From Sulfurimonas sp. (GTDB lineage: Bacteria > Campylobacterota > Campylobacteria > Campylobacterales > Sulfurimonadaceae), in contig JALSLR010000063.1 in NCBI GenBank assembly GCA_026988245.1, forward strand, positions 1-47,172: a DNA stretch of 47,172 nt, given 5' to 3'. Made by a program: the position numbers and the translations under genes. The notes beneath the pieces were generated by a model. It did no database searches. It had not been told where the DNA came from and saw only the letters and a list, made by a program, of their open reading frames with translations. Shown here piece by piece: positions 6,420 to 16,954 of the stretch. Position 1 is the stretch's first letter; each line of letters starts with the position of its first letter.

Positions 6420-6501
6420 AGGCCCTCCTCAATAATAATTGCATAACTTAACATAATTGATTTGCTAAATTATGAAATATCACTTATTGGAGATATAATA
6501 A

Positions 6502-6530
6502 TATATAAGTGCTACAAAAGCACTCATATA
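6502..6530 (-). terminator. Strong hairpin just after htpG
   Basis: Eight bases after the htpG stop the minus-strand RNA can form a 12-bp stem: AGTGCT/AGCACT extended by six further A-U/G-U pairs, with a 5-base loop. The sequence after the stem is AT-rich but not a clean U-run. It may be a terminator or an mRNA-stabilising hairpin. Confidence 0.45.
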
Positions 6531-6538
6531 ATACTTAT

Positions 6539-8434
6539 TTATAAAGCCTTAACTATGATTCTATTTAAACGAGAGATGAAGTCTGCAGTATCAGGCAACT
6601 CTTGACCATCAAATAACTTTGCTTGATCTAGAAGTACATGAGCAGCATCATTAATAAGGTTTTGATCAGCAGAATCTTTTAATTTTATAAGTAATTCATG
6701 CTTAGGGTTAATCATAAAAATTGGCGCTGGTTCCGGAGCACCTGAATCTTGTCCCATCTGTTTCATCATCTGAGCCATCATATAAGAAGGATCTTCTTTA
6801 TCAACTTTGATAGCTACAGGGGAATCAGTTAAGTCAGATGTAGTTTCTACAGACTTCACAGCATCACCAAGTGCATCTTTAAATTCTTTAGCAAGACCTT
6901 CATAAGTTTTTGCGACTTCTTCTTCAGCTTTTTTCTCTTCTTCACTCTCTTCAAACTTAGCATCTGCTACTGGAACTAGTTTAAAATCTTTATAATCAGT
7001 CACCATAGGAAAAATAATAGTATCTACTTCTTCATTTAGTACTAATACATCAAGACCCTTCGCCTTAAATCTCTCTAGTGCAGGAGAAGCTTTAAGCATA
7101 GCTAATGAACTTTTACCAGTTATGTAATAAATCTCTTTTTTCTCTTCATCTATATTTTTAACAAACTCTTCTATCATAACTGTTTCATCAGAGTTAAGAG
7201 TATTAAACTGCATAAGTTCTAAGATTTTCTCACGATTATCGAAGTCATTATAAAGACCTTCTTTAAGAACATTTCCAAATTCAGCATAAAAGGTATTATA
7301 TTTTTCTTTATCTTTTTTAGCCATTTTAGCTAGTTCTGATAAAACTTTTTTCACTGATGTTTTTTTGATTTTATCCATAATTGGATTAGACTGTAAAATT
7401 TCACGAGATACATTTAAAGGTAAATCTTTAGAGTCTATAACACCACGCAAGAAGCGTAAATAAGTTGGCATCAACTCTTTTTCATCATCAGTAATAAATA
7501 CACGGTTAATATAAAGTTTAATACCAGTTTGATAATCTACACGGAACAAGTCCATCGGTGCTTTGCTAGGGATGTAAAAAAGTGTAGTGTACTCTATTGC
7601 CCCTTCTGCTTTGTTGTGCATCCAAGCAAGAGGTTCTTCTGAAGAATGTGCTATAGAGCTATAAAAATCTTTATATTCATCATCTTTAATCTCTTTCTTA
7701 CTTATTGTCCAAAGTGCATTAGCTTTATTTATTTGTTCATTTTCTATCTCTGTACGACTTGGCTCTAGCTCTTCTTTGCCCTCCTCATCCATAACAGCAG
7801 ATATATGTTTTTCTTTATCCATAAAGATTGGAAAAGGAATATGATTTGAGTATTTTTTTATAATTGTTTCTATTCTATGTGTCTCTAAAAACTCATCTTC
7901 ATCATCCTTGAGATGCATCACTATAGTAGTGCCATGTCCATCTTGAGTAGCATTATCTATCTCAAAGCTCCCATCACCCGCGCTAGTCCAAGTGAATGCT
8001 TGTTCCTCTCCAGCTTTCTTAGTAGTAACTTCTACTTTATCTGCTACCATAAAACAAGCATAAAAACCTACGCCAAACTGACCGATAAGGTTGGAATCTT
8101 CTTTTTGATCACCAGTTAAGTTTTCTAAGAATGCTTTCGTTCCAGACTTCGCAATAGTTCCGAGATTATTCATCAAGTCTTCTTCGTTCATACCGATACC
8201 AGAATCTTTAATAGTCAAAGTCTTAGCTTCTTTGTTTGCTACGATGTCAATACGCGGTGCAAATTTCACATCTTTATATTTATCTTCTGTAAGTACCAAC
8301 ATATTGAGTTTATCTAGTGCATCTGATGCGTTAGATACTAACTCTCTTATAAAAATCTCTTTATTTGAGTATAGTGAGTGAATCATTAAGTGTAATATTT
8401 GATTTGCTTCTGTTTGAAACTGATGTTTTGCCAT
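6539..8434 (-). CDS. htpG: Molecular chaperone HtpG (Hsp90 family)
   Basis: Cytosolic ATP-dependent chaperone, 631 residues, the usual length for bacterial HtpG. The N-terminal GHKL ATPase domain shows the catalytic Glu and Mg-binding Asn in RELVSNASDALDKL (E31, N35). The nucleotide-contacting Asp is in DSGIGM (about 77-82), and the lid glycines are GQFGVGF (118-124). The middle domain has FYIPSKAPMDLF and LPLNVSREILQ, and the C-terminal dimerisation domain ends in LNRIIVKAL. AAAGGA lies 7 bases before the ATG. It is monocistronic or followed weakly by the gene at 5904. The upstream region holds repeats that could be regulatory. Confidence 0.97.
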   Translation of the reverse strand: MAKHQFQTEANQILHLMIHSLYSNKEIFIRELVSNASDALDKLNMLVLTEDKYKDVKFAPRIDIVANKEAKTLTIKDSGIGMNEEDLMNNLGTIAKSGTKAFLENLTGDQKEDSNLIGQFGVGFYACFMVADKVEVTTKKAGEEQAFTWTSAGDGSFEIDNATQDGHGTTIVMHLKDDEDEFLETHRIETIIKKYSNHIPFPIFMDKEKHISAVMDEEGKEELEPSRTEIENEQINKANALWTISKKEIKDDEYKDFYSSIAHSSEEPLAWMHNKAEGAIEYTTLFYIPSKAPMDLFRVDYQTGIKLYINRVFITDDEKELMPTYLRFLRGVIDSKDLPLNVSREILQSNPIMDKIKKTSVKKVLSELAKMAKKDKEKYNTFYAEFGNVLKEGLYNDFDNREKILELMQFNTLNSDETVMIEEFVKNIDEEKKEIYYITGKSSLAMLKASPALERFKAKGLDVLVLNEEVDTIIFPMVTDYKDFKLVPVADAKFEESEEEKKAEEEVAKTYEGLAKEFKDALGDAVKSVETTSDLTDSPVAIKVDKEDPSYMMAQMMKQMGQDSGAPEPAPIFMINPKHELLIKLKDSADQNLINDAAHVLLDQAKLFDGQELPDTADFISRLNRIIVKAL

Positions 8435-8576: not shown

Positions 8577-8906
8577 ATGGAAAATAATTTTATAGATATG
8601 ATACGAGAAACACCAATGCTTCATTCTAAGAAGTGTAGATTTATTTCATTTATGCTTTTAATGATGCTAAGGTATAGTGTCTATCTAATCACAATAATGG
8701 TATGGATGAAATATGATTTCTTTATCGCTTTTTTCATTTTAATACTATCCTTTATAGTTGTTGGTATAATTCGTGCAAAACTTAGAAATATCGCTATTCC
8801 ACTACAACAACAAGAGTATCAATATAGCGATAAAGAGATTGCTGATTGGTATACTGCACGTGAAATATGTAACGATGCATTAGAAAAAGAACTAGAAAGA
8901 ATATAA
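8577..8906 (+). CDS. Small membrane protein co-transcribed with the ABC-F gene
   Basis: A 109-residue protein with two hydrophobic segments (about residues 22-43 and 48-65) and a charged C-terminal helix rich in Glu. No family is recognised. The first ATG has no ribosome-binding site and sits directly behind an extended -10, suggesting leaderless translation; Met8 or Met13 could be the true start. Its TAA shares a base with the ATG of the ABC-F gene (TAATG), so translation is coupled. Confidence 0.6.
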   Translation: MENNFIDMIRETPMLHSKKCRFISFMLLMMLRYSVYLITIMVWMKYDFFIAFFILILSFIVVGIIRAKLRNIAIPLQQQEYQYSDKEIADWYTAREICNDALEKELERI

Positions 8907-10855
8907 TGGCACTCATAGACCTACAAAACATCTCAAAACACTACTCTGCGCAAAAAATACTTACAGAAGTAAACTTTCATATAGATGAGGGTGAACGTAT
9001 CGTTATCATTGGTAAAAATGGGAGCGGTAAGTCTACTCTCATGAAAATTGTAAATGGAACGTTAACTCAAGATGCAGGTGAGCGTATCATCCAGAGAGGC
9101 TTACAAGTAAAGATGCTAGATCAACGACCTAACTTTAAAGAGGGTCACACAGTAAGAGAAGCTGTTGAAGATGGGCTTGTCGAACTTAATGATGCTAAGG
9201 ACAAGTACAACGAGTTATCTCTAAAACTAGCTGATGATTTTGAGAACAAAAACTTACTTGACGCTCATGAAAAACTCTCTGCCTTCATAGACCACCATAA
9301 TGCTTGGAACTTAGATGATAAGATAGAACGTATCATCCAACATTTTAATTTAAAACAGTATGAACATAAGCCTATTGATTTACTAAGTGGTGGAGAACAA
9401 CGCCGTGTTGCCTTAGCATCACTACTACTACAAAAACCAGATGTACTTTTGCTAGATGAACCTACCAACCACCTTGATGTCTATATGGTTGAGTTTTTAG
9501 AAGAGTTAATATTAAAAGAAAAATTTACCCTTATATTCATATCGCATGATAGATATTTTATAGATACGATTGCTACTAAAAGTATAGAGGTTGATGAATG
9601 TGCCTTACGTGAATATAGTGGTGGGTACTCAAATTACCTCACACAAAAAGCTGAGTATATGCGTACACTTCAAAAACAACATGATAACTTACTAGATATA
9701 CTAAAAAGAGAAAATGCTTGGTATGCCAGAGGTGTCCGTGCTAGACTCAAGCGAAATGAAGGTCGAAAAGAAAGACTGATGCAACTTCGCAATGATGCTA
9801 AGAACAACCCAGCCAAGATAAGAAAAATGTCAGTTGAACTCCAACGTGAAGCTAAACATTTTAACCGTGACAAGAGCATCAACAAACAAAAAATGCTCTT
9901 TGAAGTAGAAAATGTAGGGCTTACCCTTGGCAACAAAGAGCTCCTAAAAAACTTCACTACTCGCATACTTCAAAAAGATGTTATAGCAATAGTGGGACCA
10001 AATGGTAGTGGGAAATCAACACTCCTAAAAGCATTACTTGGAAGAATAAAACCAACAAATGGAAAAATAAAACAAGGCGAATTTAAAATAGGCTACTTTG
10101 ACCAGCATAGAGAGATGCTAGATGATGACAAAAACCTTATGGAGACCTTTTGTCCACATGGTGGCGATAGAGTAAGTGTTCGTGGGAAAGATATGCATGT
10201 CTATGGCTACTTGAAAAACTTTTTGTTTCCTAGAGAATTTTTAGAAAAAAAGATAGGTGTACTTAGTGGTGGAGAAAAAAACCGTATAGCCCTTGCCCTA
10301 CTTTTCACCCTCGAGGTAGATATACTCATACTTGATGAGCCTACAAATGACCTAGACATCCCCACTATAAACATTCTAGAAGAACAACTCACAAATTTTG
10401 CAGGAGCGGTTATCATAGTAAGTCACGATAGGTATTTCGTAGACAAGATTGCAAAAAAACTCTTTATATTTAAAGAAAATAAAGAGATAGAAGAGTCCTA
10501 CCAAAACTATTCTGAGTATTTAGAACTTGAAAAAGAACTTAAAGAACTAGACTCAATGGAGCATGATGCTAAGAAAAACAATGATGCTAAGAGTATCGGA
10601 ACAAAAAGCATTAAAAACAAAACAATAAAACTTACATATAAAGAGACTCTCGCCTTAGAACAATTACCAAAAGATATAGAACTCTTAGAGTCACAAATAG
10701 AAGAAAAAAACAAATGCCTTGCAAGCAAGTCATGTTATGAGGAAATAGGGTTAACAGCCTTAGCATCACAACTCCAAAAACTTGAAGAAGTTTACGAAGC
10801 TAAGGTTGAAGAACTCTTAGATATAGAAGAAAAAGCCGAGTCTATTTTAAGTTAG
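8906..10855 (+). CDS. uup: ABC-F family ATPase, Uup-like
   Basis: Soluble protein of two tandem ABC ATPase domains without membrane segments, 649 residues. Domain 1: Walker A GKNGSGKST (36-44), signature LSGGE (160-164), Walker B with LLLDEPTNHLD (181-191). An arginine-rich interdomain linker contains WYARGVRARLKRNEGRKER. Domain 2: Walker A GPNGSGKST (about 363-371), signature LSGGEKNR (about 452), Walker B with LILDEPTNDLD. The C-terminal ~95 residues form a coiled coil with KLTYKETLALEQLPKDIE, as in Uup. Family members act on ribosomes; Uup is linked to ribosome and DNA-transposon phenotypes. No sign of the antibiotic-resistance subtype. The last 14 bases overlap the convergent TPR gene. 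Confidence 0.85.
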   Translation: MALIDLQNISKHYSAQKILTEVNFHIDEGERIVIIGKNGSGKSTLMKIVNGTLTQDAGERIIQRGLQVKMLDQRPNFKEGHTVREAVEDGLVELNDAKDKYNELSLKLADDFENKNLLDAHEKLSAFIDHHNAWNLDDKIERIIQHFNLKQYEHKPIDLLSGGEQRRVALASLLLQKPDVLLLDEPTNHLDVYMVEFLEELILKEKFTLIFISHDRYFIDTIATKSIEVDECALREYSGGYSNYLTQKAEYMRTLQKQHDNLLDILKRENAWYARGVRARLKRNEGRKERLMQLRNDAKNNPAKIRKMSVELQREAKHFNRDKSINKQKMLFEVENVGLTLGNKELLKNFTTRILQKDVIAIVGPNGSGKSTLLKALLGRIKPTNGKIKQGEFKIGYFDQHREMLDDDKNLMETFCPHGGDRVSVRGKDMHVYGYLKNFLFPREFLEKKIGVLSGGEKNRIALALLFTLEVDILILDEPTNDLDIPTINILEEQLTNFAGAVIIVSHDRYFVDKIAKKLFIFKENKEIEESYQNYSEYLELEKELKELDSMEHDAKKNNDAKSIGTKSIKNKTIKLTYKETLALEQLPKDIELLESQIEEKNKCLASKSCYEEIGLTALASQLQKLEEVYEAKVEELLDIEEKAESILS

Positions 10856-11441
10856 ACCTCACATATACATTGTTTGGGTCTAACACTAAGATATCTTCAT
10901 ATAATTTTTCTAAATATGGAGAATTTGTTTGCTTATAAACTACAGATAAAAGTTCTAAGAATGAAATATCTGTTGGATATAAAGCTAACATTTTTTGAAT
11001 AATTTTTATTGATATATCATATTTTCCTTGGGCATTAAGTGATTGAATCATATAAATATTTGCATAGTAATTATAATAATCTATTTTTAAAAGTTCGTTT
11101 GCTACTTTTTCTGCTTCTTTATATGAGTGTGTATCAAGATAAACCCTCATAAGTCCTAGTCTTGGATCGAGAGCATAAGAGTTTATCAGAGATGCTTTTT
11201 TATAATACTTTATAGCATCAGCATAGTTTTTATTGAGATAAAACAACCATGCAAAACGAAGATTAAGTGTATAGCCTTTTGGATATTTACTATATAATGG
11301 AGACAAAACCTTTATTGCTTCTTTATACTTCCCCAAAAGTTCGTAATCATAAGATTTAAAATACTGAGACTTTACCTCATCAAAACTATCACTTGCAATA
11401 CTTAACGATAAGCTTACTAAAAGTACAAGTAAATATTTCAT
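10842..11441 (-). CDS. Exported TPR protein, last gene of the six-gene operon
   Basis: A 199-residue protein with a signal peptide (about residues 1-17, MKYLLVLLVSLSLSIAS). It is followed by tetratricopeptide-type helical repeats with the usual Gly/Ala/Tyr/Pro spacing: a repeat ending LSPLYSKYPKG, one with FYLNKNYADAIKYYKKA, one with SYKEAEKVANELLKIDYYN, one with GKYDISIKIIQKMLALYP. It is probably periplasmic and acts in protein-protein interaction, perhaps with the outer-membrane protein encoded just upstream (1-base gap). No catalytic motif. Its 3' end overlaps the convergent uup gene by 14 bases. Confidence 0.75.
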   Translation of the reverse strand: MKYLLVLLVSLSLSIASDSFDEVKSQYFKSYDYELLGKYKEAIKVLSPLYSKYPKGYTLNLRFAWLFYLNKNYADAIKYYKKASLINSYALDPRLGLMRVYLDTHSYKEAEKVANELLKIDYYNYYANIYMIQSLNAQGKYDISIKIIQKMLALYPTDISFLELLSVVYKQTNSPYLEKLYEDILVLDPNNVYVRSNLK

Positions 11442-11442
11442 A

Positions 11443-12339
11443 TTAAAACCTATAATTTACACTAGCGGTGTAAATCTCATTTTTTGCTTCATCAATGAGT
11501 GCGTATTCTACATAAGTATTTTGTGCATAAGAAAGATCCACAATGAAATCTTTTGAGAGGTAGTATCCAAGCTTTGACTTAACTCCATTTTTTTGTAAAT
11601 CAAGAGAGTTAAAAACACTCATTCCTCCATCTTTTACACCACTTCGCATCTCGCCTAAGTATCCAGAGAGCTCAATAAACAAACTTTTATAATAAAAAGT
11701 ATCAGAGATACCATATGAATAGTACTCTTTTTGAATATAATCCTCTGTTGTCTGATAATTAAACTCCAAACTTACAAAATTACTCATAGTATAACTTATA
11801 CTTTTAAAATAAGAAAAGTAAGGACTGTACTGAATAATACCTATTTGCGATGAGGCATCCGTAATATCACTATTTTCATTGCGTCCTTTGTTGTAGTAAC
11901 TATAGTAAAAATTCAATCCATACGAATACTTATCATAATCAACGTAGTTGTATCCACCTAAACTGACAATAGCTACTACCCCATCATCGAGTATTAAATC
12001 ATTTGTAGCTATGTAGTGTCCACCAAGTTTAAACATAAAGTTAGCATAGTAACTAGAGTAGGCTAAACTTATATCATGTTGCGTTAAGTTGGGTATCTCA
12101 GTTTCAAGTCCTGTTTGCGAAGCTTTTTTGTAGGTAGTATCTATATATCCGTACGAACCCTCAAGTAGGTAACTCAAGTTCCCTACATTTGCATACACAC
12201 CAAGTAAGGAACTACTCTCTTTATATGATTCATTTACATTATCACTATACGAAATATTGCCCACATAAGGCACAACCCTAGCTACATCTGCAAAAAGAGA
12301 TATAAGGCTCACAACTAAACCTAAAATAATTTTCTTCAT
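11443..12339 (-). CDS. Predicted outer-membrane beta-barrel protein
   Basis: A 298-residue protein with a signal peptide (about residues 1-17, ending near LFADV). The body consists of alternating, Tyr/Ser/Asn-rich amphipathic strands throughout, such as GLNFYYSYYNKG and LGYYLSKDFIVDLSYAQ. The final residues, SVNYRF, end in the C-terminal aromatic recognised by outer-membrane assembly machinery. No specific porin family is identified. The ATG overlaps the stop of the transporter-peptidase gene (ATGA) and has a strong AAGGAGAG site. In context it could be the outer-membrane exit or surface component of the operon's product. Confidence 0.7.
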   Translation of the reverse strand: MKKIILGLVVSLISLFADVARVVPYVGNISYSDNVNESYKESSSLLGVYANVGNLSYLLEGSYGYIDTTYKKASQTGLETEIPNLTQHDISLAYSSYYANFMFKLGGHYIATNDLILDDGVVAIVSLGGYNYVDYDKYSYGLNFYYSYYNKGRNENSDITDASSQIGIIQYSPYFSYFKSISYTMSNFVSLEFNYQTTEDYIQKEYYSYGISDTFYYKSLFIELSGYLGEMRSGVKDGGMSVFNSLDLQKNGVKSKLGYYLSKDFIVDLSYAQNTYVEYALIDEAKNEIYTASVNYRF

Positions 12340-14363
12340 AACACTCTCCTTAATTCTATATTTTTATATTTAATCAAACTAAAACCTTTAGCATTTGCTT
12401 CTATATGAACCTCTCCATCCAATGATGACACACAAGAGTTATCAAATGTATATTCCTTCTGCGCCTTATAAAAGTTTTTATTTACAGTTGATGCCAATTC
12501 TATAAGACTTGTTTGCATTTTTGACTTGAGCAAATACAAGGGAAGATAGTCTTTGTAGCGTACACCCTGTTTATTTATAAAAGGTATCCTCGGCGCCAAA
12601 ATAAACAACTCTTTTAAGAAAGATGCCTTACCCTCATACTTGTAAAAATAAAATTGCTTTAAATCGTTGTAAAAATATAATTTATTATTTTTTACATCAT
12701 TAAAATAAAACTCTCCAAAGCTATTCATCTTGACACTAAAGAGAACTATCTCTTTTTTAATGCCCTCTTCATATACCTCATATCTATACTCATCATCTAA
12801 GATAAAAAGAAGTCTTGAGCTGATGCTTCTGTCATTTACAACACTACTTACTACATCACCTCGTAGAAGCTTAGAGTTAAAAACGAGTAAATCATCTTGA
12901 AAAAATTCACTAAAACAAAACTCTCTTGTAAAAGCACCTATTACACCTAAATCTTGCACTTGAATATGTATATGGGGCTCAGGAGAGTAACCACTGTTCC
13001 CACACTTCGCTATAATTTCATTTACTTTTACATAATCCCCAACGTTAAGTTTAATGCTATACTGCATAAGATGACTTATCTCCACATAAAAGCCTAAATC
13101 ACTTTTAATGATGATGTAGTTCCCCCAGTTGTTTACTCTATCAACCTCACCTATGATGTTATCAACCAAGTCATGCCTAGAATCAACTATATAACCATTC
13201 ACAGGACTTAAAACAGACTCTCCAAAACAATAATAATCATCAAGATACAAACCTTCTTTCTCGTAACTTAGTCCATCTTTTTTTTGTACAAAATCATAGG
13301 CATATTTGTATTTTCCCTTATGTGTCCACTCGTCATCCTCACTTTGGTATACAGTCCAATCTCCACTAAAAGGTAAAGATATTTTAGTATAGAGTTCACC
13401 AAACCTAAATATACTAGATAGATATGAGGACAAAGACTCTTCTGGTGTTGATTTGATGTTTAGATTGAACTCTTTATAGTAAATAATAGAGAGTATAAAT
13501 ATAAAAACTATAACCGTAATGTTAAATGGTATAGTAAACACAGGAATAGCATAATAGTTAAACAATACAGCGATAGCATCTGTTAAAAAAACACTAATAG
13601 CTACCCCTATAAGTGCAAGGAAGAAGTTCTTTATAGTTGGCAAAAGAAATATACCACATAATGCTATGGCTACTAATATGTAGTTAAAAGAATATGGGTC
13701 GCTAACAGCTTGAACATAGGAACCTAAAAGATAACTATGAACTAAGACACCAAAGTAATATCCTACAAGTGACATTATCGCAATGATTCTAGAACTATAC
13801 AAAAGAAGTAAAAATATTAAAATACCTGCTATATTTGTCGGCAGAAAAAAGATAGTGCCAAGGGATTTTAAATAACCACTCAAAACTAATGGAAGCATTA
13901 TGTCAAAAACTGTAGAGTTATTTACAAGTGATGAGAGTAAACCGGAGTATTTCAATGATGCTAAGTATAAAAACATTGTTACTATGGAAAATGGTAAGGA
14001 TAAAATTGGAATTTTATGTACACTAAAGAGTTTGTTAAACATAAACGAAAGCATAAAAGTAAAAGATGCTGCAATGGCAATAAGAGATATACTCAAAACA
14101 GAGGGATAAAATATATACCCAATACCCATTCCAACTAAGAGTGAATTGTAGATATAAAATCCCTGAGATAGATATGCCTCTTGTAGCGATAATAGCTCAG
14201 CAAAAAGAATGGTAAAGATAACTGCGGCAATACCACTAAGTGCCACAGATGGATTTACAAAGGTAATAAGCAACATAGCTAAGCCTATATATTTATTGTT
14301 TAAAAATAGTATAGAACTATATGGCTTTAAAACCACATTTATAAAATTTGTATATTTTTGCAT
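12336..14363 (-). CDS. Urea-transporter-like membrane domain fused to M23 metallopeptidase
   Basis: A 675-residue two-part protein. The first ~300 residues are about ten membrane segments resembling bacterial urea transporters (UT family): an early NPSVALSGIAAVIFTILFAELL block, then GFYIYNSLLVGMGIGYIF, which matches the UT half-repeat pattern, echoed later by DPYSFNYILVAIALCGIF. The second part is an M23/LytM endopeptidase: HKGKYKYAYDF gives the first zinc His and Asp, ISHL the catalytic His, and PHIHIQ the last zinc ligand, so the active site looks complete. The peptidase domain should face the periplasm and act on peptidoglycan or a peptide. No ribosome-binding site is obvious, so it is probably translated by coupling to the decarboxylase gene 8 bases upstream. 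Confidence 0.8.
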   Translation of the reverse strand: MQKYTNFINVVLKPYSSILFLNNKYIGLAMLLITFVNPSVALSGIAAVIFTILFAELLSLQEAYLSQGFYIYNSLLVGMGIGYIFYPSVLSISLIAIAASFTFMLSFMFNKLFSVHKIPILSLPFSIVTMFLYLASLKYSGLLSSLVNNSTVFDIMLPLVLSGYLKSLGTIFFLPTNIAGILIFLLLLYSSRIIAIMSLVGYYFGVLVHSYLLGSYVQAVSDPYSFNYILVAIALCGIFLLPTIKNFFLALIGVAISVFLTDAIAVLFNYYAIPVFTIPFNITVIVFIFILSIIYYKEFNLNIKSTPEESLSSYLSSIFRFGELYTKISLPFSGDWTVYQSEDDEWTHKGKYKYAYDFVQKKDGLSYEKEGLYLDDYYCFGESVLSPVNGYIVDSRHDLVDNIIGEVDRVNNWGNYIIIKSDLGFYVEISHLMQYSIKLNVGDYVKVNEIIAKCGNSGYSPEPHIHIQVQDLGVIGAFTREFCFSEFFQDDLLVFNSKLLRGDVVSSVVNDRSISSRLLFILDDEYRYEVYEEGIKKEIVLFSVKMNSFGEFYFNDVKNNKLYFYNDLKQFYFYKYEGKASFLKELFILAPRIPFINKQGVRYKDYLPLYLLKSKMQTSLIELASTVNKNFYKAQKEYTFDNSCVSSLDGEVHIEANAKGFSLIKYKNIELRRVL

Positions 14364-14371
14364 AGGATTTT

Positions 14372-15700
14372 CTATACTTCTTTATAATTTATAGTAGCCA
14401 AATCATCGACCTCTTTTATATACCTAGCTTCTCCCTCTTTGTCTATAAGAACAACAGCTGGTTTATAACGAATAAATTGCATAGCTTGAGTGTAGTTGTA
14501 TGCACCAACAGGAGATATAGTTATAACACTTCCTCTATCAAGCGGTGGTAGCATTACGTTTTCTTCTATAATATCTATATTCATACAAAGTGGCCCATTA
14601 AGCATAGATGGCTCATTGTCACCATCGTATCGTTTATCTAACTCTATATTGAAGTTATACCAAGTAGAGGTGTAGAGTAGATTTACTCCAGCATCTAAGA
14701 TATACCCTTTTTTAGCATCAGGAAATCGTTTATGTCCCCAAACTGAAGTGAGAAGATATCCAGCTTCATCTATAAGGTGTCTTCCTGTTTCAAGATAGAG
14801 CTTAGGTAGCTTTTCACTTTTGTTATATTCGTAGATAGCATTTGTAATAGCTTCTGCATAATCATCAGCAGTAGGAACTACAACTTCAGCAGACTGGTAT
14901 ATACCCTTCAAGTTACTCTTAGAAGCAAATCCACCTCCAAGGTCTATGTACTCTATCTCTGAGTTAAAGTCCATCTCAACTCTCTCTTTTAGTTGCATTA
15001 TTTTTATAGTCGCTAACTTGTATGCATTAGCATCTAACATAAATGTACCTATGTGTGAGTGAAGCCCAACAAGATAAAGTTTCCCACCATCATACATTCT
15101 ATTTATAGCCTCATATGCATCACCATTTTCATAGTTAAACCCAAATCTACTCCACTGAGGGTATACACCTGTATCCATATTTATACGAATTGCAACTGCT
15201 ATGCGAATCCCGAGTTCATCAGCAATCTCTTCAAGGTCATTTATCTCAAATAGATTATCTACATGAATTTTTGCACCCTCCTCTACTGCTATTTTCAAAT
15301 CAGCCTTTGGTTTATAGGGACCATTAAAAATTATATCTTTGCCCTCTACACCTAAGGCTCTTGCTTTTTGATACTCAAACTCACTTACAACTTCTGCAAC
15401 AGAGCCTAAGTTGTGATATATTTTACATATTTCATTTAAGTAGTTAGTCTTATATGACCAGCCAAAAGTTACATCTGGATAACGAGATGAAAAAGCAGAA
15501 TAAAGAGTATTGTACTTTTGCTCTATTTGACGCTGTGAAAATACAAATATAGGGCTACCAAATTTTTGTATCAACGTGCTTATTTCTACACCATCTATCT
15601 CAGTACGAATTTTTTGACTTTTTACAGGACTTCCATATTTTGAAGCCATTGCAAAATCTATTTTATTTATGGTTGGTATTTCATATTGTAATTTACTCAT
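14372..15700 (-). CDS. Fold-III PLP-dependent decarboxylase, LysA-like
   Basis: A 442-residue enzyme of the diaminopimelate/ornithine/arginine decarboxylase fold. The PLP lysine is K84 in GWSYKTN, where LysA has YAVKAN. GLHSHIGT corresponds to LysA GLHCHIGS, and YIDLGGGFAS is the phosphate-binding glycine loop. LETGR replaces the substrate-contacting EPGR. GPLCMNID keeps the catalytic Cys (C372) and Asp of the CESxD motif but differs between them. Late VGAYNYTQAMQF corresponds to AGAY. It is therefore likely active, with a substrate other than plain diaminopimelate. An N-terminal ~45-residue extension precedes the core. AAGGA lies 8 bases before the ATG, one base after the ATP-grasp stop. The true lysA is not in this window. 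Confidence 0.85.
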   Translation of the reverse strand: MSKLQYEIPTINKIDFAMASKYGSPVKSQKIRTEIDGVEISTLIQKFGSPIFVFSQRQIEQKYNTLYSAFSSRYPDVTFGWSYKTNYLNEICKIYHNLGSVAEVVSEFEYQKARALGVEGKDIIFNGPYKPKADLKIAVEEGAKIHVDNLFEINDLEEIADELGIRIAVAIRINMDTGVYPQWSRFGFNYENGDAYEAINRMYDGGKLYLVGLHSHIGTFMLDANAYKLATIKIMQLKERVEMDFNSEIEYIDLGGGFASKSNLKGIYQSAEVVVPTADDYAEAITNAIYEYNKSEKLPKLYLETGRHLIDEAGYLLTSVWGHKRFPDAKKGYILDAGVNLLYTSTWYNFNIELDKRYDGDNEPSMLNGPLCMNIDIIEENVMLPPLDRGSVITISPVGAYNYTQAMQFIRYKPAVVLIDKEGEARYIKEVDDLATINYKEV

Positions 15701-15701
15701 T

Positions 15702-16718
15702 TTATAATTCCTTTGTCGATAACAATTTCATAAAATCTGTAAAATCAGTTACAAATTCACCTGTATATCTTACATACATCTTATTTTGAGGATATGTCAA
15801 ATTGACTTGAATATCTTTTTCGTTCATTATATCTACAACCATTTGCGGTAAGTTGACACCTAATTCAGTTGCAAAATAGACCCATGCAGGAAAACGAGGA
15901 TTTATCTCTATCATATAGATTTGATTCATGTTAACCATACATTCAAGTTCAAAAGGTCCCTTCCAACTAGTAAAGGCAACAAAGTCTTTTGCTATTTGCA
16001 TAAGTTTTTCATTTTGTATAGTTACACCGGTCCAGATTTTTCCTATCTCAGTAGTTGTAAGTTTTTTTATGGCTACTGCGCCACAAAGTTCACCCTTACC
16101 ATCGCCAACTCCTACAAGGTTTATCTCTTCACCTTTGACTACTTCTTGTATAAGTATAGGAAAACCCCATTCGTTTGATATTTTGTAAAAACTCTCTATA
16201 GCACTCTCTAAGTTCTGTGCCATATATGCCTTGTAGTAATTACCTTTGACCATAAGAGGAAAGTTTGATGTTTTGGTTATTTTTTCAAGTTCTGCTACTG
16301 AACTTATCTCATAAGTTTTAGGATATGTGATGTTTAACTCTTTAGATAAACTATCTAACTTATTTTTATTTCTTAATTCAAAATTTTCACTAGTTGGAAG
16401 ACAAAGTTTAATACCCATAGACTCAATCTCTTTTTGATATTTTATGTACAAAGGAAGTTCAGCATCAAGATTTGGGATAATTACTTCAATATTTTCTTTT
16501 TCTTTAATCTCAATAAGTCTATTTTTCAACTCTTCAAAACCCAAAGAAGGAAAAGGCATAAGATATGTTTTACGAACCATATCTGACATATAGTTTCCAG
16601 GTTCATTTGGATCATAAGCAAAACCTATAAGGGTATTCTTAGCTTGTAAACTTTTTATGACTGGTATACCTGGTGCGGGGTTATCTGTATTGTTTAAACC
16701 ACTGACTGCTACTATCAT
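15702..16718 (-). CDS. ATP-grasp carboxylate-amine ligase-like enzyme
   Basis: A 338-residue protein of the CarB-like ATP-grasp superfamily, whose members activate a carboxylate as acyl phosphate for attack by an amine or thiol. The N-terminal pre-ATP domain starts MIVAVSGLNNTDNP. FPLMVKGNYY carries the ATP-binding lysine strand. ILIQEVVKGEEINLVGVG is the adenine/hinge strand. FELECMV followed by EINPRFPAW (E271, N273) supplies the Mg ligands. The substrate cannot be read from sequence. Its start shares a base with the stop of the PqqD-like gene (TAATG), and the decarboxylase follows after one base. This suggests the three proteins act together on an amino acid or peptide. Confidence 0.85.
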   Translation of the reverse strand: MIVAVSGLNNTDNPAPGIPVIKSLQAKNTLIGFAYDPNEPGNYMSDMVRKTYLMPFPSLGFEELKNRLIEIKEKENIEVIIPNLDAELPLYIKYQKEIESMGIKLCLPTSENFELRNKNKLDSLSKELNITYPKTYEISSVAELEKITKTSNFPLMVKGNYYKAYMAQNLESAIESFYKISNEWGFPILIQEVVKGEEINLVGVGDGKGELCGAVAIKKLTTTEIGKIWTGVTIQNEKLMQIAKDFVAFTSWKGPFELECMVNMNQIYMIEINPRFPAWVYFATELGVNLPQMVVDIMNEKDIQVNLTYPQNKMYVRYTGEFVTDFTDFMKLLSTKEL

Positions 16719-16954
16719 TAGAGGAGTCCATAAACTTTTAATTTTGTGTAGAAATCACTTACATCTATAAAAAGCTCCTCCTTATTTACATCATATTTTC
16801 CATAGAGCGCATCGATTATTTCATTTTTATTTTTATTTGACTTTAATAAACTAATAATCTCTTTAGCTAAAAAATTCAATTGATAAGAGTTTCCCATCAT
16901 TGGGTGAAATGCTACATTGTTTTCATCTAAAATTAATTCTGAAATTTGCTTCAT
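16718..16954 (-). CDS. PqqD-like small protein, first gene of the operon
   Basis: A 78-residue protein matching the PqqD/RRE fold. It has a strand with Phe-His, GNSYQLNFLAKEIISLL, a helix with NEIIDALYGKY, then DVNKEELFIDVSDFYTKLKVYGLL, the usual closing helix. PqqD proteins bind leader peptides of RiPP precursors or serve as small partner domains for modifying enzymes. No precursor peptide is seen next to it, and the neighbouring enzymes are an ATP-grasp ligase and a PLP decarboxylase instead of a radical-SAM protein. AAAGG lies 8 bases before the ATG. Confidence 0.75.
   Translation of the reverse strand: MKQISELILDENNVAFHPMMGNSYQLNFLAKEIISLLKSNKNKNEIIDALYGKYDVNKEELFIDVSDFYTKLKVYGLL

Follow-up and report, generated by a model that had tools for sequence, protein, structure and literature searches.

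The window, the whole 47,172-nucleotide stretch of Sulfurimonas sp. DNA analysed here, contains on its minus strand (12336..14363) a gene for a 675-residue protein, with an ATG start and no internal stop, in which a urea-transporter (UT) domain is joined to an M23 peptidase domain. The original prediction had placed this reading frame exactly and had read its first ~300 residues as UT-like, which the searches bear out: residues 8–290 (13494..14342) match PF03253 over profile positions 1–290 of 292 (E 1.5e-62; 211.8 bits, cut-off 25), and homology to solved structures of human UT-A (8blo, E 5.5e-34) and dvUT (3k3f, E 6.8e-19) suggests a pore of ten transmembrane segments. Its description of the remainder as a complete M23 peptidase holds for the active site. 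Peptidase_M23 (PF01551) matches residues 381–471 (E 6.4e-10; 39.5 bits, cut-off 28.7), a profile search against solved structures finds lysostaphin (4qp5, E 6.8e-8), and the five metal/catalytic residues are intact; both Pfam matches in the frame are far beyond chance. We draw the M23 domain at residues ~318–492 (12888..13412) so as to take in the first His/Asp motif. Residues 493–675 (12339..12887), however, which the original prediction had included in M23, form a third domain.

This C-terminal domain (~183 residues, beta-rich, with an FYFYxYxG motif) is conserved in the 19 homologues, less so than any other part of the protein, and has no convincing Pfam or PDB match. The window’s copy matches no Pfam family, those of the homologues give only scattered marginal matches, and we take the best PDB match, to a designed repeat protein (E 0.022), as chance. 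Structure prediction from a five-row alignment gave AlphaFold pLDDT values of 36.6 for the full-length protein and 36.5 for the M23 domain alone, too poor to use.

The family search that the original prediction had proposed for the fusion and its neighbours returned 18 full-length homologues and a conserved six-gene operon. The same UT–M23 architecture is thus found in 19 full-length proteins, including the window’s, with pairwise identity in the UT part falling to 37%; because so many complete proteins share it, the fusion is no artefact of assembly. A search of an open-access library, which lacks most subscription journals, turned up no description of either the fusion or its operon, and a defence-system library gave no match. 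The novelty lies in the unreported combination and context of a known UT-fold channel and a known M23 domain. UT–M23 is real and conserved, and its operon is more interesting than the fusion alone; indeed, the conserved set of PqqD, ATP-grasp, decarboxylase, TPR and outer-membrane genes is the most informative evidence on the protein.

All six genes of the window’s operon lie on the minus strand. The first (16718..16954) encodes a 78-residue PqqD-like protein (PF05402, E 1.4e-9; 38.6 bits, cut-off 23.4), the second (15702..16718) a 338-residue ATP-grasp ligase of carbamoyl-phosphate-synthase-like or PylC-like type (ATPgrasp_Ter, E 3.8e-8; ATP-grasp_3, E 1.2e-5) and the third (14372..15700) a 442-residue PLP-dependent fold-III decarboxylase (Orn_Arg_deC_N, E 3.2e-30). 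UT–M23 is fourth, followed across loci by two further genes in either order. One encodes a 298-residue protein without a Pfam match (11443..12339), predicted from its signal-peptide-like N-terminus and general sequence character to be an outer-membrane protein; the other encodes a 199-residue TPR protein (10842..11441; TPR_14, E 4.9e-14), also with a signal-peptide-like N-terminus and predicted to be periplasmic. The TPR protein gives weak matches to TPR_Slam and to PgaA-type TPR models, which come from outer-membrane export systems, and these matches likely reflect generic TPR similarity.

Every complete locus examined, in 18 genomes and three MAG loci, has all six genes; one further locus (L004) stops inside UT–M23, and in three loci the outer-membrane gene lies upstream or behind an intervening gene. 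The first four genes overlap or lie a few bases apart, with gaps mostly of −38 to +16 bases. Distances among homologues of the UT, M23 and C-terminal domains, the decarboxylase and the ATP-grasp ligase correlate with one another (r 0.77–0.90), as expected of genes inherited together. We consider it highly probable that UT–M23 belongs to a conserved biosynthetic cassette.

In a sample of 397 genomes of the phylum Campylobacterota, a UT that passes the family cut-off is present in 20. Nineteen of these, and no other genomes of the sample, carry one copy each of the UT with its full operon, the ATP-grasp ligase and this M23 subtype (hypergeometric value for UT and ATP-grasp co-occurrence 1.6e-31, with shared ancestry ignored), and the twentieth, G334, has an unfused 273-residue UT outside any such operon, the only other full-length UT found. 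The distribution is patchy: among 21 genomes of the same genus listed, the window’s own alone has the cassette. A contig scan with close peptides as queries, which distant fusions would escape, also found it in four MAGs named Sulfurovum or Helicobacteraceae, plus one Sulfurimonas MAG with a fragment of it. Two of the 19 carriers (G053 and G224; loci L049 and L050) have decarboxylase and UT–M23 frames that are split by frameshifts; some neighbouring genes are split too, so that decay and assembly errors are inseparable there. Beyond Campylobacterota the search covered plasmids, and the plasmid collection held no UT–M23 fusion and no comparable cluster around its relatives of the ligase and decarboxylase.

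What might the channel carry? One reading is that it simply moves urea in or out to supply nitrogen, and that M23 rides along as a passenger. The original prediction had proposed inspecting the urea-selectivity residues, and the 14 urea-contact residues reported for dvUT (PMC5311045) were mapped onto the 19 homologues. The UT domain is complete, and seven contact positions (F27, L84, L129, F190, F243, L247 and T294) are identical throughout. By contrast, all 19 have Y for F80, S for T130 and one of S, A or E for Q24. At the E187 position 14 have T, two have A and three keep E, a replacement in 16 of 19; in the window’s protein, S17 and T170 take the places of Q24 and E187. The L293 equivalent is mostly F or Y. 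In the LPxxTxPF-type signature, the first half-repeat reads IPILSLPF, with a T-to-S change invariant in the homologues, and the second reads IPVFTIPF. Against the urea-transporter equivalog TIGR03441 (yut), the domain scores 118 bits, below the cut-off of 274.6. As read from these residues, the fused pore keeps the narrow frame and has lost the usual urea anchors, Q24 and mostly E187. Loss of urea transport is likely, and we grade it no higher because vertebrate UTs also vary at E187 and at some other contact sites (PMC5311045).

Genomic context points the same way. The original prediction noted that the window has no urease genes; this is correct, and neither urease alpha nor an arginase-family gene was found in the window’s genome (assembly ~94% complete). 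Across the 19 carriers, no arginase-family gene was found and nothing convincing emerged for urease alpha; the partial matches in three genomes cover 35–49 positions within frames of 399–426 residues and are probably other amidohydrolases. The sole unfused UT in the sample, that of G334, keeps Q24 and has Q at 187 in a near-canonical pore; an arginase-family gene precedes it by three genes on its contig. Together with the strict linkage of UT–M23 to a ligase and a decarboxylase, these observations make an ordinary urea transporter improbable. Relative to the UT family (PF03253; dvUT 3K3F, human UT-A and UT-B), the fused protein has the full-length domain match and pore frame in common, and differs in the Q24/E187 loss, the F80Y and T130S changes, the added M23 and further domains, and the absence of linkage to urea genes. 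As a contrast to the fused form, the stand-alone 273-residue UT and its arginase-family neighbour can be inspected at 6426–7247 and 9561–10622 of locus L043.

On which side of the membrane does the peptidase lie? With loop limits set by hand from the hydropathy profile and the dvUT alignment, the loops on the side of the N-terminus and C-tail carry a mean of 10.4 K+R in the 19 homologues, versus 1.9 on the other side. The bias runs in the same direction in 19/19 sequences (Wilcoxon p 1.2e-4, for sequences that are not independent). The UT C-tail that bears the M23 domain (K-x-TPExSL) aligns with the C-tail of dvUT, which in the UT fold is cytoplasmic, and the hydropathy profile has no eleventh hydrophobic segment ahead of M23. 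From the positive-inside count and the C-tail homology, we predict with good confidence that the M23 domain faces the cytosol.

This placement bears on the proposal, made in the original prediction, of a wall enzyme: a periplasmic M23 domain that cuts murein and uses the UT as its anchor. Peptidoglycan is the substrate of most characterised M23 enzymes, the profile matches here are lysostaphin and murein endopeptidases, and the operon encodes two proteins with signal-like N-termini. The predicted orientation, the dvUT-like C-tail and the missing eleventh segment all argue against it, however, as do two features of the domain itself. First, C454 is invariant and unpaired in the 19 homologues, which fits a reducing compartment. 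Second, the closest M23 relatives outside the phylum, found in the plasmid collection, are from haloarchaea and Thermus and have the RYAxDF motif and the Cys in common with UT–M23; haloarchaea lack murein, and therefore members of this M23 subtype may have targets other than murein. A wall enzyme is, in our assessment, very improbable. The second proposal of the original prediction, a peptide or amide channel that cleavage would gate, is conceivable. The domain itself appears to be a working peptidase, as H348, D357, H431, H464 and H466 are likewise invariant in the homologues, which argues for activity. It resembles M23 metallopeptidases such as lysostaphin, LytM, MepM and ShyA in its HxH, catalytic His and first-motif His/Asp, and departs from them in the spacing of that first motif (H-x8-D, versus the usual H-x3-D) and in its predicted cytosolic location.

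The biosynthetic enzymes of the operon have recognizable relatives. The closest PDB entry to the decarboxylase is the N-citrylornithine decarboxylase FslC (7kh2, E 5.4e-59), and BtrK (2j66) is also matched; against the FslC equivalog the score is 236.3 bits, short of the cut-off of 500. The PLP lysine K84, H216, C372 and Y401 are among the residues invariant in 20 homologues, which argue for an active enzyme. The residue after the Cys is Met here and in FslC and Glu in the archaeal diaminopimelate decarboxylase 1twi, a pattern that fits a substituted amino acid as the substrate. For the ATP-grasp ligase, the closest structure is 2pn1 (E 1.2e-8). The 78-residue protein belongs through PF05402 to the PqqD family, among which are many RiPP recognition elements (PMC12710340). 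The 800 bases ahead of PqqD were searched in 22 loci for a linked precursor peptide, and no conserved small ORF was found; the few small ORFs shared there are confined to loci whose upstream genes are the same, and look like shadow frames of those genes. We also considered a LysW-like carrier, in which the product would be attached to the PqqD-like C-terminus, and dropped the idea because its final residues differ among homologues (L, LS, LIQ, LIDESGN), although the GL motif just ahead of them is fixed.

Taken together, these features suggest a pathway for making and exporting a small amide or amine, with UT–M23 as its inner-membrane component. The PqqD-like protein would bind or present a substrate, to which the ATP-grasp enzyme would link an amino acid by an amide bond; the PLP decarboxylase would then strip the carboxyl group from the linked amino acid. 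The cytosolic M23 domain could cut this conjugate at the mouth of the pore, and the small product would leave through a UT-type pore with non-urea selectivity, after which the TPR and outer-membrane proteins may carry it over the periplasm and outer membrane. The scheme builds on the domains, operon conservation, co-occurrence, invariant catalytic residues and altered pore residues observed here, and on an M23 orientation predicted by rule; from these we infer the kinds of substrate and product, the sequence of steps and the export direction. It is the most likely of the readings weighed, and as a whole chain one that we advance tentatively. It gains from the closest solved decarboxylase, 7kh2, which acts on an N-acylated amino acid, and from BtrK, a member of the same family that pairs with an ATP-grasp enzyme to modify a substrate on a carrier protein. 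Three points count against it. To our knowledge, the M23 enzymes whose function has been established cut murein, and do so outside the cytoplasm. Neither a precursor peptide nor a carrier attachment residue was found in the loci. Finally, the UT pore is narrow, 2–3 Å in solved structures (PMC10541013), which would restrict the product to something very small.

The same parts could in principle run in reverse, with a compound entering through the pore, M23 cleaving it, and the ligase and decarboxylase processing the pieces; outer-membrane and TPR proteins serve uptake as well. ATP-grasp ligases, however, build bonds at the cost of ATP, and linkage of the operon to a catabolic oxidoreductase or aminotransferase is absent, so we regard degradation coupled to import as rather improbable. 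A different kind of alternative is a sensor or transceptor, in which a small solute detected by the UT would set the activity of the cytosolic M23 protease, whose target would be a regulator or the enzymes of the pathway. Here the enzyme domain sits directly behind the channel, ammonium channels fused to signalling domains offer a comparison, and many relatives have a Trans_reg_C response-regulator gene in or beside the operon, some with a histidine kinase too. The window’s own operon has no such regulator, however, and linkage to biosynthetic enzymes and to signal-like TPR and outer-membrane proteins suits production and export better; we judge a sensor unlikely. Examples of such additional genes are at 8899–9513 of locus L002 and 10354–11418 of L036.

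Among known systems, the proposed production-and-export pathway comes closest in its enzymes to FslC of the rhizoferrin pathway and to BtrI, BtrJ and BtrK, which make the butirosin side chain, with a decarboxylase of the same family and the same logic of ligase plus decarboxylase. It differs in that its PqqD-like protein is no acyl carrier and that it has no NIS synthetase, and we know of no UT–M23 protein in either pathway. In its coupling of a cytosolic peptidase to a membrane exit route, UT–M23 is like the PCAT ABC transporters by analogy only: PCATs join a C39 cysteine protease to an ABC exporter, folds unrelated to an M23 zinc enzyme and a UT pore, and the UT–M23 system has no ATPase and no precursor peptide that we could find. 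More broadly, UT–M23 might represent a new peptidase-coupled exporter, a re-tuned UT-fold channel whose cytosolic M23 domain frees a solute from a ligase-made, decarboxylated conjugate, within a natural-product pathway of Campylobacterota, so far undescribed, that combines PqqD, ATP-grasp and decarboxylase proteins. We hold this fuller proposal to be doubtful. If true, it would give a UT-fold channel its first non-urea function within a defined pathway, show an M23 enzyme active inside the cell on a non-murein target, and point to an unknown small molecule from some free-living-type Campylobacterota.

Two minor observations concern relatives of the operon’s genes. A Nitratiruptor transcriptome paper names an ATP-grasp gene in connection with Cd/Cu stress (PMC10092412), a link that we set aside: by our estimate its locus tag lies elsewhere, and the text of the paper contains no tag within the range estimated for the UT–M23 operon. 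Plasmid-borne M23 proteins of a haloarchaeon (L051, 4563–5636), Thermus (L052, 3641–4600) and Listeria (L053, 2656–3531) have a hydrophobic N-terminus followed by an M23 domain with an RYAxDF-like first motif, and they possibly belong to a wider group of membrane M23 proteins with a non-murein role.
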